Shown in pieces: positions 31,450-59,150 of a stretch of 59,320 bases of DNA. The number at the start of each line of letters is the position of its first letter. Within the stretch, counting starts at the first letter, position 1. Under the pieces are notes generated by a model. It made no database searches. It was not told where the DNA came from and worked only from the letters and a program-made list of their open reading frames with translations. Origin of the DNA: Actinomycetota bacterium (lineage in GTDB: Bacteria > Actinomycetota > Actinomycetes > Streptosporangiales > Streptosporangiaceae); the NCBI GenBank assembly GCA_027314515.1, contig DAHVAR010000147.1, positions 1-59,320 on the forward strand, read 5' to 3'. The position numbers were made by a program, and so were the translations under genes.

Positions 31450-33171
31450 TCAGTGCCCCATCGCTACTTCGACGATGCGGACCACCACGGCACCCATCGC
31501 GATAACCAGGTAGATCCACATTCCGGTCAGGGCGAGCCGCCGGCCGACGGACATCTGCACCGGGGCGAGCATGGCCAGGGCCGGCATCCGCCAGTTTTCC
31601 TTGCTCATGGCCTCCGGCCGGGACAGCCGGTCAGGTTCGGCTTCACCGGCCTCAGGGGCCTGGTCAGGGGCGGCCGGCCGACGGCCGACGGCCATGACGA
31701 CGGCGACCGTGACCAGCGCGACGCCCGCGAATCCGATCATGATCAGCAGAATCTGCCCCGAGCTGATGTGCGGGAACGTCACCGACGCCACCAGGATCAG
31801 CGACAGCATGATCAGCAGGGCGATCACCGAGCCGGTGAAGGCGTTGGTGAACCGCCCGTTCACCCACGGCCCTAGTACCGCCTTGTCGTTGCACAACAGC
31901 AGCAGGAAGACCGTCGCGCTCGGCAGCACGACGCCCGCCAGCACCTGGACTCCCTCGGTGAACAGGCCGAGCGGTGAGCCGGGGATGAGCACGATTGTCG
32001 CGGCGCCGGCGACCAGCCCGCCGTACATGACGTAGAAGCCCTTGGCCTGCCGCACGCCCCGGTGCAGCGAGTGCTTGAGGCCGAGTACGTCACCGAGCGC
32101 GTAGGCGGTGGAGAGCGAGACCGCGAAGGCGCCGATCATGGCCGCATCCAGCAAGGCAACGGCGAACAGCGCGCCGGCCGCCTGGCCGGCCGATGCGGCG
32201 ATCCCGGCGGCCAGCCCGGCCGCGTCGGTGTAGTGGCCTGCGGCCGACGTCCCGGCGAAGGCCGCCGCCGCCGCGCCCATCAGCGCCGCGCCGCCCACGA
32301 TGACGACGCCGATCCCGATGGCCAGGTCCGCCTTCTCGTACGGGATGAACCGCGGGGTGATGCGCTTGTCGATCACGTAGGACTGCTGGAAGAAAAGCTG
32401 CCACGGCGCGACCGTGGTGCCGACGATCCCGATGATCAGCAGCATGACCGTGCTCAGCTGCCCGGCCCCGCCGGGCATGTTCGGCACCACGAACCCGGTC
32501 GCGACCTGGCCAGCAGCCGGGTGAGACAGCACGTAAAGCGGGATCAGCAGCAGCGACCCCGCGCAAAAGACCATGGCGATCCGCTCGAACCTGCGGAAGC
32601 TCCCGGTCATGGCAGAAGCCACGATGACCAGCGCGGCCAGCAGCACGGCGACGATCTTGGGCACCCCGAGGTAGCCGGCCGCGAGCGTGATCCCGATGAA
32701 CTCGGTGATGATGGTCAGCGCGTTGAGCAGGAACAAGTCGATGACGCTGAACGCGCCCCAGAACCTGCCGAACCGCTCCAGGATCAGCCGGGCGTGCCCG
32801 ACCCCCGACACGGCGCCCAGCCTGAGCACCATCTCCTGGTTCACGTACAGGACCGGGATCAGCAGCACGAACGTCCAGAGCAGATGCGTGCCATAGTTCT
32901 GGCCTGCCTGGCCGTAGGTGGAGAACGCGCCCGCATCGTTATCGCCGACCATCACGATCAGCCCTGGACCGACAATCGCCAGCAGCGTCTTGAGCTTGGC
33001 GCTCGCCGACTTGCGCGCGGCGATGTCGTCGACGGCGATCGTGCCGAGCGCGCCGCGGATGTCGCCGACGTGCGCGGTGTCGAGCGCCGCCCCGTGGTCA
33101 GCTGCGGCGCGGTCGGCTAGGGCACTGTGGCCAGGCACCGCACGGCGGAGGCCGGAAGTCGCTGAGGTCAC
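31450..33171 (-). CDS. Nramp-related transporter with altered metal-site motifs, under M-box control
   Basis: A 573-residue membrane protein with an unusual polar N-terminus (about 60 residues) and about eleven hydrophobic helices. In canonical Nramp transporters TM1 carries DPGN and TM6 carries MPH; here TM1 reads 'MVGDNDAG' (residues 74-81) and TM6 reads 'GTTVAPWQ' (251-258), so the manganese/iron-selecting Asn and Met are gone. Nramp-related magnesium transporters (NrmtA of Clostridium) also lack the canonical set and are controlled by M-box riboswitches. An M-box lies in this gene's leader (33476-33634). Magnesium import is therefore the favoured role; divalent-metal transport in general is well supported. 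The GTG at 33171 follows a weak GGGGTGA. Confidence 0.85.
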   Translation of the reverse strand: MTSATSGLRRAVPGHSALADRAAADHGAALDTAHVGDIRGALGTIAVDDIAARKSASAKLKTLLAIVGPGLIVMVGDNDAGAFSTYGQAGQNYGTHLLWTFVLLIPVLYVNQEMVLRLGAVSGVGHARLILERFGRFWGAFSVIDLFLLNALTIITEFIGITLAAGYLGVPKIVAVLLAALVIVASAMTGSFRRFERIAMVFCAGSLLLIPLYVLSHPAAGQVATGFVVPNMPGGAGQLSTVMLLIIGIVGTTVAPWQLFFQQSYVIDKRITPRFIPYEKADLAIGIGVVIVGGAALMGAAAAAFAGTSAAGHYTDAAGLAAGIAASAGQAAGALFAVALLDAAMIGAFAVSLSTAYALGDVLGLKHSLHRGVRQAKGFYVMYGGLVAGAATIVLIPGSPLGLFTEGVQVLAGVVLPSATVFLLLLCNDKAVLGPWVNGRFTNAFTGSVIALLIMLSLILVASVTFPHISSGQILLIMIGFAGVALVTVAVVMAVGRRPAAPDQAPEAGEAEPDRLSRPEAMSKENWRMPALAMLAPVQMSVGRRLALTGMWIYLVIAMGAVVVRIVEVAMGH

Positions 33172-33180
33172 GGCGGATCA

Positions 33181-33209
33181 CCCCGTTCACCGCCGTTTCC
33201 ACGGCGGGG
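33181..33209 (-). promoter_or_regulatory. Hairpin that can hide the Nramp-like ribosome-binding site
   Basis: On the transcript the GGGG of the ribosome-binding site (33184-33181) can pair with CCCC (33209-33206), around an inner stem GCCGT/ACGGC with a GGAA loop. It sits between the leader ORF stop and the transporter start. Translation of the leader ORF could affect its folding; that link is inferred. Confidence 0.4.
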
Positions 33210-33249
33210 TCAGGGGGCACGCACGACCCGGTCGGGCAGCCTCAGGCTG

Positions 33250-33345
33250 TCAGGCTGCGGCCGATGGCAGGTTCACGTGTACGTGCCCGGGGCAGGCAGT
33301 ATTGGCGGCGAGGGGCCATTTTCGGCCCGGACTATCAGAGTCCAT
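33250..33345 (-). CDS. 31-residue leader ORF between the M-box and the transporter gene
   Basis: ATG at 33345 is preceded by GGAAGGAGG at a good distance, the strongest ribosome-binding site in this leader. It encodes MDSDSPGRKWPLAANTACPG followed by HVHVNLPSAAA and ends at TGA 33250-33252, 78 bases before the transporter GTG. It has no known family. Short ORFs act as magnesium-responsive leaders in mgtA-type systems (MgtL), so a regulatory peptide is plausible. It contains two prolines near its end and a His-Val-His-Val segment. Confidence 0.5.
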   Translation of the reverse strand: MDSDSPGRKWPLAANTACPGHVHVNLPSAAA

Positions 33346-33388
33346 TGCTCGCCTCCTTCCCGCCGCGGCCCGGCCGCGTCATGCCCTG

Positions 33389-33410: not shown

Positions 33411-33475
33411 GCCCGTAGTCAGGCACCTCACGAGACAGCGTCCACCGGGCGGGAATCCGCCACGGCGAGGCACCC

Positions 33476-33634
33476 CCTCGTTAGAGCTTTGGCACTTCAC
33501 GGCGTAGCGCGCCCGAAGGGTGCGCAGCCACCTGGCCTCACCCCTTACTCCGGGGAGAGGTGTCCTGATCCGGAGCGTCTCTCGACGGGTGGGATCAGTG
33601 GCCTGTGTCCGTGAAGACGCCTCACCGAACAAGG
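33476..33634 (-). ncRNA. M-box (ykoK) magnesium riboswitch
   Basis: Read on the minus strand, the element opens with CCTTGTTCGGTGAGGCG and closes with AGTGCCAAAGCTCTAACGAGG, which match the conserved 5' GTGAGGC and 3' GTGCTAAAGCTCT blocks of the family. The P1 ends CCTTGTT (33634-33628) and AACGAGG (33482-33476) pair fully. The central GTCGAGAGACGC loop is also present. M-box RNAs fold compactly at high magnesium and usually turn off magnesium-transport genes. The gene downstream in this direction is the Nramp-related transporter. Confidence 0.85.
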
Positions 33635-33838
33635 TGTCCGTATTACACAGCTTCTTGAGCATGCCTGCCCGGGCGGGCCTATGTCAAGCTGACGGACATC
33701 TCGGGCAGGCGGTTATTCCCGTTACCCTTGATGCGGCACCGACGGGCAGGATGCGGCACCGCCCGGCCTCCGGCCATGCGCCGCCGCAATGGTATGAAGG
33801 CCACGTCAGGTGCTGTCAGAAGGGGAGGGCGCTGCAGC

Positions 33839-36376
33839 GTGGCCATACGACGAGCTGTCGGCAGGCTGACGCGGCGAGGCGACCTGGCTGACGGGCTCGG
33901 CTACACCCTGAAGCGCAAGCTGCTCGGCAAGCCGCTCATCAACGAGCAGCTAGGCGAGCAGCGGCTGACCAAGACGCTGGCGCTTGGCGTGCTGTCGCCG
34001 GACGGCATCTCCTCGTCGGCCTACGGCACCGAGGAAATCCTGATCGAGCTGATGCTCGGCGGCCTGGGCGTTAGCGCGTTCACGGTGCTGCTCCCGATCA
34101 CTGGCGTTGTCCTGTTCGTCATGGTGCTCGTGGTGCTGTCTTACCGCGAAGTCGTCATGGTTTACACCAGGGCCGGCGGCTCCTACGTTGTCGCCAGGGA
34201 CAACTTCGGCCCGCGGGTCGCCCAGATAGCAGCTCTGGCGCTGTTGGTGGACTATGTCGTCACCGTCGCGGTGCAGATCGCCGCCGGGACGGCGGCCGTG
34301 GCGTCGGCGTTCCCGAGACAGCTGAGCAGCCCGGCAACGCTGACGCTGATCTCCATCGGCGTCGTGCTGCTGATGCTCTTCGGCAACCTGCGCGGCATCC
34401 GGGAGGCCGGCAAGGCCTTCGCCGTGCCCACGTACCTGTTCTCGGCGGTGATGATCATCACGATCGCCGCCGGCCTGGTGCGGGAGTTCTTCTTCTCCCT
34501 GCCGCAGTGGCACGTGCACTGCCCGCCGGGCATCGTGCACTGCACCTACGAGCAGGCGGCCGCGCCGAACCACAGCGGCTTGATCACCTTCGGGCTGATC
34601 TTCGTGATGCTGCGGGCATTCGCCAATGGCGGGTCATCGCTCACCGGCATCGAGGCGGTATCGAATGCGGTGAGCGCGTTCAAGCCGCCCGAGGGCATCA
34701 ACGCGCGCCGGATCCTGGTGTACGAGGGCGCGATCCTCGGCACCCTGGTGGCCGGCATCTCGTGGCTGGCGCACGTGACGCACGCCCAGCCCTACACCAC
34801 CGGCGTGCCGACGGTCATCTCCCAGGAAGCCCAGCTGGTCTTCGGGACATCGGTCTTCGGGCATGTCATGTATGCCGTCGTGCAGGCCGCAACCGCGCTC
34901 ATCCTCTACACCGGCGGCAATACCAGCTTCAACGGCTTCCCGTTCCTGGCCAGCTTCGTCGCCGAGGACGCATTCCTGCCCCGGTGGCTGACCAAGCGCG
35001 GGCACCGGCTGGTGTTCTCCAGCGGCATCATCGTGCTGGCGACCGTGTCGATCACCCTGCTCGCGGTGGTCGGATCGAACGTCAACAGGCTGGTGCCGTT
35101 CTACGCGCTCGGCGTGTTCACCGCCTTCACCATGGCCGGCTTCGGCATGGCCAAGTACCACCACCGGATGCGCGAGCCGGGCTGGAAGCGCAAGCTGGTG
35201 ATTAACTTCTCCGCTGGCGTCACGTCCCTGTTCGTGGTGCTGATCTTCGCGATCGTCAAGTTCACCGAGGGCGCCTGGCTAGTCGTGGTGCTGTTCATCG
35301 TCGGCGTCCCGGCGCTGATCCGGCTGAACCGCCAGTACCGGATGGAGGCCACGGTCCTCGAGAACATCGAAAGCCGCGGCAAGCCCTCTGAGCCGCCCAC
35401 GTACTCCCGGCGCAGCGTTCTCGTCTTCATCGACGACTTCGACCTGGCCACGATCGCCGCGCTACGGTACGCGCGCAGCCTGCGGCCCACCTCGCTGCGC
35501 GCCGTGCACTTCGTCATCGACAATGTCCAGGCTGACAAGCTCCGGCAGGACTGGGTGCGGGCCAATACCGGCATCCCGCTCGATTTCGTCGACTGCCCGG
35601 ACCGCCGTCTGACCACCGCGGCAGCCACCCTGGTCAGCGCCGACGCGGCGCTGCCCGGCGTGGGCGTGACCGCGATCCTGCCGCGCCGCAGCTTCGCGCC
35701 CATCATCGGCCGCCTGCTGCACGACCGCACCGCGGACAAGATGGCCGCGGTGATCAGCCGGATTCCGCACGCCGCCGCCACGATCGTGCCCTTCGACGTG
35801 CGCAGCAGGGTAGAGAGCCTGGCCCGGCGCGGTCAGCCAGCCAGGCCCGGAGCCGATGGCGCCGGGCCCGAGCCGCAGGCCGAGAGCCAGGCCGGCCTGC
35901 CGGGGGCTGCCCCGCCAGCGGCGCCACCGCCGCGCGGCCGCCGGTCGCGAGCCGGGGCGGAGCAGCCGGTCGCCGCGGACCTCACCGGTCCGGCGGGCGA
36001 TGAGTACAGCCGCCCGGTGCCGCGGCCGGGCGTGACGCCGATCGGCTCGCTGCGGCGGCCCGGCCGGGCTGTCGCCGAAGGACGGGTACATGCGGTCGAG
36101 ATCCGCCCCGTCGAGCGCAACACCGTGCTGGCCTGCGACGTAGAAGATTCCACCGGGCAGCTGACCGCGCTGTTTTACGGCCGCTCGAACATTCCCGGCC
36201 TGCGGCCGGGCTCCAAGGTCCGGCTGCGGGGCCAGGTCGGCATCCGGGACGGCAGGCCTGTCATGATCAACCCCGCTTATGAGCTGCTCGCCCCCGGCGC
36301 GGCGAGCACGGACGACCCCGAACCCGGCGCGCAGCCCGGTACCGGCCAGGACTCGCGGGACGAACCGGGACGATGA
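33839..36376 (+). CDS. KimA-like potassium transporter fused to USP-like and OB-fold domains
   Basis: An 845-residue three-part protein. Residues about 15-500 are an APC-superfamily transporter with the KimA/YdaO start ('LKRKLLGKPLINEQLGEQRL', 'LSPDGISSSAYGTEEIL', 'ALLVDYVVTVAVQIAAGTAA'); Bacillus KimA is a high-affinity potassium-proton symporter. Residues about 523-665 resemble a universal-stress-protein-like cytoplasmic domain ('SVLVFIDDFDLATIAALRYA'). After a Pro/Gly/Ala-rich linker, residues about 742-815 form an OB-fold ('GRVHAVEIRPVERNTVLACD', 'PGSKVRLRGQVGIRDGRP'). In mycobacteria an OB-fold protein is encoded near a related permease as a separate gene. The GTG at 33839 follows AGGGGAGGG; upstream in-frame Mets are possible starts. 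Confidence 0.8.
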   Translation: MAIRRAVGRLTRRGDLADGLGYTLKRKLLGKPLINEQLGEQRLTKTLALGVLSPDGISSSAYGTEEILIELMLGGLGVSAFTVLLPITGVVLFVMVLVVLSYREVVMVYTRAGGSYVVARDNFGPRVAQIAALALLVDYVVTVAVQIAAGTAAVASAFPRQLSSPATLTLISIGVVLLMLFGNLRGIREAGKAFAVPTYLFSAVMIITIAAGLVREFFFSLPQWHVHCPPGIVHCTYEQAAAPNHSGLITFGLIFVMLRAFANGGSSLTGIEAVSNAVSAFKPPEGINARRILVYEGAILGTLVAGISWLAHVTHAQPYTTGVPTVISQEAQLVFGTSVFGHVMYAVVQAATALILYTGGNTSFNGFPFLASFVAEDAFLPRWLTKRGHRLVFSSGIIVLATVSITLLAVVGSNVNRLVPFYALGVFTAFTMAGFGMAKYHHRMREPGWKRKLVINFSAGVTSLFVVLIFAIVKFTEGAWLVVVLFIVGVPALIRLNRQYRMEATVLENIESRGKPSEPPTYSRRSVLVFIDDFDLATIAALRYARSLRPTSLRAVHFVIDNVQADKLRQDWVRANTGIPLDFVDCPDRRLTTAAATLVSADAALPGVGVTAILPRRSFAPIIGRLLHDRTADKMAAVISRIPHAAATIVPFDVRSRVESLARRGQPARPGADGAGPEPQAESQAGLPGAAPPAAPPPRGRRSRAGAEQPVAADLTGPAGDEYSRPVPRPGVTPIGSLRRPGRAVAEGRVHAVEIRPVERNTVLACDVEDSTGQLTALFYGRSNIPGLRPGSKVRLRGQVGIRDGRPVMINPAYELLAPGAASTDDPEPGAQPGTGQDSRDEPGR

Positions 36377-58571: not shown

Positions 58572-59150
58572 CCGCCCAGCCGCGTCCGGGCTGCTGGGCC
58601 AGGGCGGCTGTGCCGGGGCGGCTGTGCCAGGGCGCCCAAGCGCTACCTGAGCCAGGAAAGGGGCGACCCCCGTCGGGGGGGAGAACGGGGGTCGCCATAC
58701 GGTCCGGCTCCGGGGGGGCAGAGCCGGTTCCGTTACCCAAGAAAGCCTAGTTCTAATCCCCGCAAGTTACCAGTTGGTCAGGGCGACCGGCAAAGGATCT
58801 GCTGCATCTTTATGCTGCCGTACCGCGGGCACATCCGTCGAGAGTGCGCGGACGACCACTGCCGCTTTCTCCGGCTCTCGGCAAGACGATCACTGGCCGC
58901 CGCTCGAGCAGCCGGACAGTGCTGGCCTTCAGCCGGGCACGTGTGCTGGACAAGCTGTCACGAATGCTCCCAGCCCGCCGGAAAGGGCCAGCCCGCTGCG
59001 GGCATGTGACGAAGGTTACCCATCAAGATCACGAATTGATCACGCCCAAGGGCTTTTCATGCGGACGGGATCCAAGTAGAAAGGAACTGCGGACACAGTC
59101 CGTGCACGTCAGCCGGGTACCCACGCGCGACCAGCCGCGGGAGGCGTGCC
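58572..59150. other. Non-coding stretch downstream of the helicase
   Basis: No convincing gene is visible in these 580 bases. The first part holds the two strong hairpins described separately. The rest (58740-59150) is less GC-biased than neighbouring genes, with stop codons in all frames; the longer apparent ORFs are Arg/Ser/Pro-rich. A direct repeat GATCACG occurs at about 59025 and 59036. It may contain the promoter of the small ORF that follows. Confidence 0.6.
58662..58727 (+). terminator. Tandem hairpins after the helicase gene
   Basis: First stem: GGCGACCCCCGT (58662-58673) with ACGGGGGTCGCC (58685-58696), 12 exact pairs. Second stem: CCGGCTC (58704-58710) with GAGCCGG (58721-58727). 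Both loops are G-runs (CGGGGGGG). They probably end helicase transcription; the G-rich loops could also stack as quadruplex-like structures, which is speculative. Confidence 0.7.

Follow-up and report, generated by a model that had tools for sequence, protein, structure and literature searches.

A leader ORF between M-box and Nramp-type transporter gene in Actinomycetota as a probable second level of regulation

Control of genes by riboswitches and control by leader ORFs are usually studied apart. The locus described here carries two candidate Mg2+ layers in one leader, and it raises the question of what a short ORF does between an M-box and the transporter gene behind it. Leader ORFs of Mg2+ transporter genes are known from enterobacteria. 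In Salmonella mgtQ, acidic codons and alternative helices open the ribosome-binding site (RBS) of a Mg2+ transporter, according to the accessible text of PMC8092293, and in E. coli ribosomes are reported to drop off MgtL at its EPDP sequence in low Mg2+ (PMC11282234, accessible text). For M. tuberculosis, the accessible part of the report by D'Halluin et al. (RNA 2026, PMC12810186) describes an M-box that controls translation of a conserved uORF2 (Rv1805A), acting together with Rho; the peptide is presented there as mycobacteria-specific and its role is left unexplained. The preliminary description of the present locus had taken an M-box combined with a leader ORF to be undescribed in actinomycetes, which this mycobacterial case contradicts. 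Already known are hence the M-box with a conserved uORF in mycobacteria and the Mg2+ leader ORFs of enterobacteria. New are the spread of the uORF beyond mycobacteria, its persistence without an M-box, a covarying helix linking it to the RBS of the transporter and the finding that amino-acid selection is weak. In the literature that we searched, which included few subscription journals, we found no report of the leader ORF outside mycobacteria, and none of its separability from the M-box, of the covarying helix at the transporter RBS or of the weak amino-acid selection.

The window is the whole stretch of 59,320 nucleotides that was analysed (contig DAHVAR010000147.1 of an Actinomycetota bacterium). 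The arrangement first proposed for it, a 31-codon ORF between an M-box and a transporter gene, was confirmed in all three parts (see the table): the RF00380 match is full length with 132.4 bits against a gathering score of 44 bits (cmscan), the ORF is led by a Shine-Dalgarno (SD) sequence and the gene behind it is of the Nramp type. The M-box is the only copy detected in the genome. The uORF starts 121 nt past the cmscan match, or 131 nt past the end of the profile used for all leaders, with a spacing of 6 nt between GGAAGGAGG and its ATG (33345), and 78 nt separate its stop from the GTG of the transporter. Its RBS is indeed the best of the leader, since within the 280 nt past the aptamer the sole other start with an SD match of at least 5 is a GTG behind GAGGG. 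The start of the transporter gene was likewise correctly called weak; its GTG behind GGGG is the first ATG, GTG or TTG that follows an in-frame stop. The protein belongs to the Nramp family (PF01566, E 1.3e-71) and scores 87.8 bits with the MntH model, under the cut-off of 430 bits. The closest sequence with a solved structure is 7qia (E 5.8e-46), which we take to be an NRMT.

Features of the leader and of the transporter gene in the window
Feature	Position	Strand	Basis
M-box (ykoK) Mg2+ riboswitch aptamer	33467..33640	-	cmscan RF00380, 132.4 bits, model 1-169
Shine-Dalgarno GGAAGGAGG of the leader ORF (uORF)	33352..33360	-	sequence; GGAGG there in most relatives
uORF, 31 codons + TGA, product MDSDSPGRKWPLAANTACPGHVHVNLPSAAA	33250..33345	-	TGA at 33252-33250
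Hairpin h1, GGACT-loop-AGTCC, overlaps uORF start codon	33329..33343	-	conserved pairing and window MFE
Hairpin h2, GGGCC-loop-GGCCC, within uORF	33313..33328	-	conserved pairing
Long-range helix PA, 5' strand GGGCACGTAC, in uORF 3' half	33279..33288	-	own-arm pairing test
Helix PA, 3' strand GTGCGTGCCC, before the candidate anti-SD of the transporter	33215..33224	-	10/10 pairs, covariation tests
GACCCCGC, candidate anti-SD of the transporter	33204..33211	-	SD-class matching in 45/55 leaders
GGGG, weak transporter SD	33181..33184	-	sequence
Nramp-type, probable Mg2+ transporter (NrmT-like), GTG start at 33171	31450..33171	-	Pfam Nramp; PDB 7qia; M-box upstream

A chance ORF is ruled out by recurrence. 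Of 136 unique M-box leaders, 126 have an ORF of 10 to 60 codons with an SD match of at least 6 and a start 50 to 180 nt downstream of the aptamer, while 6.7 are expected from dinucleotide shuffles; the antisense strand gave 12 of 136 and the region upstream of the aptamer 3 of 131. With an SD match of at least 5 the numbers are 130 leaders against 20.3 by shuffling, and with at least 7 they are 110 against 1.8. The leaders stem from 182 loci, which were collected from searches of relatives, class and family together with 80 named Nramp-type loci and 40 extra regions. RF00380 was present in 16 of 60 relatives, 26 of 394 class genomes, 57 of 341 family genomes and 34 of 396 phylum genomes. The aptamer profile matched in 140 of the 182 loci; two weak or short matches were dropped and two loci have two aptamers, which again gives 140 aptamers, and removal of one leader with an N, one truncated leader and two duplicates left the 136. 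A candidate ORF follows 133 of the 140 aptamers and carries the N-terminal motif in 128. The 126 unique motif-bearing ORFs have a median length of 24 codons, the median distance from the profile end to their start is 97 nt, and the genes behind the uORF in this set encode Nramp, MgtE, MgtC and other proteins. Five of the ten leaders that lack a motif-bearing ORF have an SD-led candidate failing the motif filter, which is omitted from the motif counts, and five have none. When the pattern of RBS, ATG and conserved codons was searched in 60 related genomes it occurred in seven, at a single locus each, and all seven are M-box leaders; read backwards it had no match in the same genomes. All p values given in this text are descriptive, as the shared ancestry of the leaders is uncorrected. 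Two of the genomes (G007 and G008, loci L010, L013, L017 and L018) hold two M-box Nramp-type loci each, with uORFs of differing style.

Leaders that keep the M-box and not the ORF had been named as a sign against the idea. In the main set these are only the ten of 136, but among 23 additional loci from the phylum search 14 are without the ORF. The other nine pass the rule of an SD match of at least 6, and three of them (L185, L190 and L200) begin in the acidic/Pro style; to these outside-class loci L183 was added by eye. The association of M-box and uORF is thus tight inside the class and not outside it. A T-run occurs within the first 200 nt in 12 of the 23 loci. L183, L185 and L190 show the order M-box, T-run, uORF (MDSEPGS, MESDPGHR and MESDPGSR, respectively) and Nramp-type gene.

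Judged from the alignments, the SD, the start codon and the first 11 or so codons recur across leaders, and frame and stop usually do so too. The N-termini are MDCSSSSPGHSRPHPRLSSHSSGTR in the Streptomyces type, MDSDSPGR in the window type and MSPGDSPY or MSSSDSPGRSP in mycobacteria-like ORFs. Codon 2 is acidic, written GAC, GAT or GAA, in 44 of 52 canonical ORFs. An acidic residue stands at positions 2 to 7 in 82% of the 126 ORFs, against about 36% in shuffles, and in 90% of 29 others, which are hand-picked ORFs without an M-box or from outside the class (four of them, L183, L185, L190 and L200, have an M-box and one, L078, a fragment). Pro is found among the first residues in 87% of the 126, a figure biased upward by the uORF picker, which favoured a Pro-containing motif. 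The window uORF combines both features in D2, D4 and P6. Most lineages retain AGT as a Ser codon once or twice within codons 3 to 7 (36 to 37 of 52 canonical ORFs, and Proteobacteria too). It often yields an out-of-frame TAG, and the TAG in 'AGTAG' is a conceivable stop of an overlapping uORF1.

At the protein level this conservation leaves little trace. The ratio pN/pS is 0.96 over the 52 canonical ORFs and ranges in frame from 0.77 to 1.28 over six groups, and no excess of changes at third positions is clear; conservation there is much the same as at the other two codon positions, and the uORF block is therefore conserved largely as nucleotides. Only the 14 window-type ORFs lie below both off-frames (0.80-0.82 in frame and 0.87-1.09 off-frame). 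The 26 mycobacteria-like ORFs gave 0.77-0.83 in frame and 0.74-0.94 off-frame, and nine SRPGH/SKPGH ORFs point in the opposite direction with 1.28 in frame. Amino-acid selection on the peptide was thus largely set aside, since among the six groups only the window-type ORFs gave a signal, and a weak one. Amino-acid selection on the uORF appears weak or absent. The pattern of synonymous and nonsynonymous changes, which had been put forward as a test, speaks against a specific peptide and leaves translation as such untouched.

The end of the uORF is tied to the helix that we call PA. The distance from the start codon to PA is a multiple of three in 53 of 61 NrmT-type leaders with a recognised element (77 were examined, 16 of them without the element), and in 52 of 63 leaders a stop triplet directly follows the 5' strand of PA (TAA 35, TGA 10, TAG 7). 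Part of the length variation in threes consists of AGT/AGC repeats, which are able to shift by three nucleotides without selection. In the window and in L012, L017 and L018 the strand lies at 58 nt and not at the usual 60 nt, so that the common ending ..GTR-stop is lost; the uORFs have 31, 34, 24 and 32 codons, respectively. Phase also deviates in L014, L144, L146 and L160. The lineage of the window has thus lost the ancestral frame in the 3' half of the uORF, ahead of PA, and reaches the stop only about 27 nt past the helix. In the sister species L012 there is a further shift close to the uORF end (34 compared with 31 amino acids). Start, SD and MDSDSPGR are intact in the window's copy. Of the features that had been proposed for comparison across relatives, start and first codons are hence conserved and the frame usually is, but the length is not, since the 3' half is out of the ancestral frame in this lineage.

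The region from the uORF to the transporter gene contains several conserved pairings. Over 63 aligned leaders 92.7% of the cells are paired in h2, and two pairs show two-sided changes; none of 500 shuffles was as high on paired cells and 18 reached the number of two-sided pairs. Covariation is weaker in h1 (78.3% of cells paired over 63 leaders, score reached by 61 of 500 shuffles), which is part of the window MFE. In PA, GGCACGCGG from the end of the ORF pairs with CCGCGTGCC, which stands ahead of the transporter RBS. Variants are GGCACACGC with GCGTGTGCC, GGCATGCGG with GCATGCC (three of six cases) and, in the window, GGGCACGTAC with GTGCGTGCCC, where the helix is intact with 10 of 10 pairs and one G-U. 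Pairing with the leader's own arm exceeds the average for the arms of other leaders in 57 of 63 cases (descriptive p = 5e-10) and that for shuffled regions in 61 of 63. Where the arm is of a minority type (39 leaders), it outperforms the majority arm 24 times, does worse 12 times and ties 3 times (descriptive p = 0.005). Anchored without the 5' arm, in the best of five registers, 91% of the cells pair and five of eight pairs show two-sided changes. Among 500 whole-arm shuffles, the 13 two-sided cells of this test were attained once, the count of two-sided pairs 32 times and the pair types 47 times. The underlying list of PA positions has some wrong best matches, for instance in the coding region, whose influence the later tests limit and do not remove. 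By eye, the PA strands fit less well in L055 and L048.

Next to PA lies the candidate anti-SD. The transporter SD is of class GGAGG or GGGG, and in 45 of 55 leaders its class matches the anti-SD lying upstream more closely than the alternative class would (descriptive p = 1e-5); in 35 of 55 this fit exceeds that with shuffled sequence (descriptive p = 0.001). PA and the anti-SD overlap by two or three bases in some leaders (e.g. L002, GTGCCTCCC..GGGAGG). Masking the 5' strand of PA in silico led to no consistent change in the accessibility of the transporter SD (up in 16 and down in 17 of the 48 leaders with an assigned start, p = 0.71; the other 15 of the 63 lack one). At the other end of the leader the predicted SD of the uORF is more accessible when the 3' strand of P1 is free, up in 49 and down in 22 of 126 leaders (descriptive p = 1.5e-4), and in the window the in silico values are 0.87 with and 0.32 without a free strand. 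This predicted effect fits an OFF switch. An intrinsic-terminator-like site was not found in the leader. RNAalifold on the uORF alignment returned just three pairs, none with two-sided changes. A GCGAG/CTCGC helix from the SD2 flank to about codon 17 was rejected; 88% of its cells pair, but its number of two-sided pairs was reached by 258 of 500 shuffles.

The uORF also occurs where the riboswitch is gone. The uORF INDEPENDENCE from the M-box is kept in Streptomyces (L048, L052, L054 and L055), Actinocrispum (L085) and Amycolatopsis (L088), and at none of these six loci did cmscan find RF00380 at the gathering score or at E<=1. In L048 and L055, both Nramp-type loci, only a 3' remnant of the aptamer is left, and in L052, L054 and L088 none is seen by eye. 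L085 has no sense-strand aptamer; an M-box-like relic, fragmentary and on the other strand, lies upstream of its uORF (locus position about 2570-2625). L078 has only a 5' fragment of the M-box. A pattern scan independent of the M-box, over 246 genomes of one genus, returned 22 distinct sites in 13 genomes; the genus is probably Streptomyces, because two of its ORFs recur unchanged in named Streptomyces (L224 and L074, L220 and L064). By the profile, 12 sites have a full M-box, two a fragment and eight none, and RF00380 was absent from the ten sites without a full M-box also at E<=0.1 (cmscan). The genes behind the 22 sites are 11 Nramp, seven MgtE-like, one MgtC and three unassigned; Pfam confirmed three of the seven MgtE-like calls and the MgtC gene, and the other four rest on sequence likeness. 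Thus, the uORF is evolutionarily separable from the M-box. Among 41 Nramp-type loci without a profile match, 25 have an SD-led short ORF, a number that refers to a span of about 410 start positions and has no shuffle baseline. In Pseudomonas, Aquitalea, Paludibacterium and some Alphaproteobacteria, too, short ORFs of the acidic/Pro kind lie ahead of Nramp-type genes and resemble the actinobacterial uORF, and neither profile nor cmscan found an M-box at the proteobacterial Nramp-type loci. The proteobacterial leaders with short ORFs are L071, L081, L082, L121, L099, L124, L094, L103, L116 and L111; their ORFs start with MDPWP/MDPYP, MDPSSSRP, MNDGPSR or MEPGPSS, and most of them contain an AGT codon.

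In our view the uORF is probably a leader ORF whose translation serves regulation, and it would form a second level of control that stands between M-box and Nramp-type Mg2+ transporter. The two-layer control suggested for the locus stands in that the uORF is real, recurs with its SD, start and N-terminal codons and is separable from the M-box, but the claim of novelty attached to it does not. With known Mg2+ leaders the locus shares the anatomy of a gate, an ORF with acidic/Pro start, a strand at the ORF end, an anti-SD and an SD. By analogy, at high Mg2+ the folded aptamer would hide the uORF SD and the bare leader would be terminated, probably by Rho as in mycobacteria. At low Mg2+ the uORF would be initiated, and the position of the ribosome would decide between formation of PA and closing of the anti-SD on the transporter SD. 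The most economical direction, following mgtQ, would be that ribosomes lost early at the acidic/Pro N-terminus leave PA unobstructed and the transporter SD accessible, whereas those arriving at the uORF stop would cover PA and so allow the transporter SD to be closed. In the window's copy a terminating ribosome would not cover PA, since the stop lies beyond it, and only passing ribosomes would disturb the helix. Should PA stay free when the uORF is untranslated, the OFF state at high Mg2+ would depend on Rho, whose part is assumed here. We infer the direction of the switch and Mg2+ sensing by the uORF rather than take them from folding or experiment; folding does not support the direction, because masking of PA left SD accessibility without consistent change. 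It is possible, though on the whole doubtful, that the ribosome itself acts as a second Mg2+ sensor, destabilised at the acidic/Pro N-terminus and wired by PA to the transporter RBS, and that this arrangement is Actinomycetota-wide and predates the M-box that it usually follows or outlasts it, with similar acidic/Pro ORFs ahead of Nramp-type genes in Proteobacteria that lack an M-box.

A simpler account would make the uORF the proximal target of the riboswitch, whose translation keeps Rho off the leader, with peptide, PA and ribosomal Mg2+ sensing irrelevant. This is the published model for the pe20 M-box, in the accessible text of PMC12810186, and it agrees with the small amount of amino-acid selection, the response of the uORF SD to the P1 strand in silico and the leader without an intrinsic-terminator-like site. 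However, the uORF is retained where the M-box was lost, PA covaries and is followed by a conserved stop, and the N-terminus is acidic and Pro-containing, and we regard protection from Rho as the whole function as rather unlikely. The conserved block could also be an RNA structure or an extended expression platform in which the ORF is incidental. The even conservation of the three codon positions and the covariation of h2 and PA would suit such a platform, but 126 of 136 leaders have SD and start, the stop is maintained through three different triplets, 53 of 61 leaders are in phase and the acidic codon 2 is written in three ways in 44 of 52 ORFs, so that we give this explanation little credence.

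Even less probable, in our opinion, is a functional small protein, such as a partner of the transporter, which the discoverers suggested for Rv1805A. The N-terminal residues do look conserved, a paralogue outside M-boxes is reported for M. tuberculosis (PMC12810186, accessible text) and the 14 window-type ORFs give the weak signal mentioned above. Against it, pN/pS is 0.96 over the 52 canonical ORFs and, in the other five groups, not consistently below both off-frames, and the C-termini are variable, shifted even in the sister species L012. The regulatory leader ORF that we favour gives the mycobacterial uORF a wider family in tractable hosts and a testable role, namely translation itself and not the peptide.

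The closest known relative is the pe20 M-box with uORF2, which in the accessible text of PMC12810186 has the same M-box, a strong conserved SD, a short ORF past the aptamer and a Pro in the conserved N-terminus. This Pro is residue 6 in the window and residue 7 in the Rv1805A-type N-terminus; the mycobacteria-like loci read MSSSDSPGRSP and were compared without Rv1805A itself. The mycobacterial peptide precedes pe/ppe, metal-transporter or unknown genes (same source), whereas the actinobacterial uORFs described here precede Nramp-type, MgtE and MgtC genes, with or without an M-box, and carry PA. With mgtQ, as far as the accessible text of PMC8092293 goes, the locus shares a short ORF with a strong SD, acidic codons, an anti-SD on the transporter RBS and alternative pairing with the ORF. 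In contrast, mgtQ there has eight codons, is intergenic, has no M-box and has an experimentally proven ribosome effect, which for our locus is inferred. MgtL is likewise a Mg2+ transporter leader peptide with an acidic/Pro N-terminus, drop-off being MgtL's own feature; unlike the uORF it governs access to a Rho site and, in the accessible text of PMC11282234, has no M-box, and the likeness is one of N-terminal style. An M-box upstream of an Nramp-related Mg2+ transporter is also found for NrmT of Clostridium acetobutylicum, but the switch is drawn there with an intrinsic terminator, and the accessible portion of PMC4072509 mentions no leader ORF. In M. tuberculosis metE/ppe2, uORF translation modulates a riboswitch-controlled gene as well; its ligand is B12, however, and ppe2 works by an overlapping stop/start with termination and reinitiation (PMC11260477, accessible text). 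The natural deletions of the riboswitch amount to a separation experiment that has already been done. If ribosome drop-off holds true, an enterobacterial principle of Mg2+ sensing would extend to another phylum.

Some further observations concern the transporter start and the rest of the window. In both L017 and L018 the codon homologous to position 33171 is ATT, and their transporter genes have no in-frame ATG, GTG or TTG ahead of the first conserved motif; this suggests that these transporters use an AUU start. At 33728-36376 (+) of the window a divergent ORF of 882 codons encodes an APC-type permease with an OB-fold-like C-terminal tail, as judged by eye, and a 6C RNA (RF01066, 61.2 bits) lies at 58658-58734 (-).
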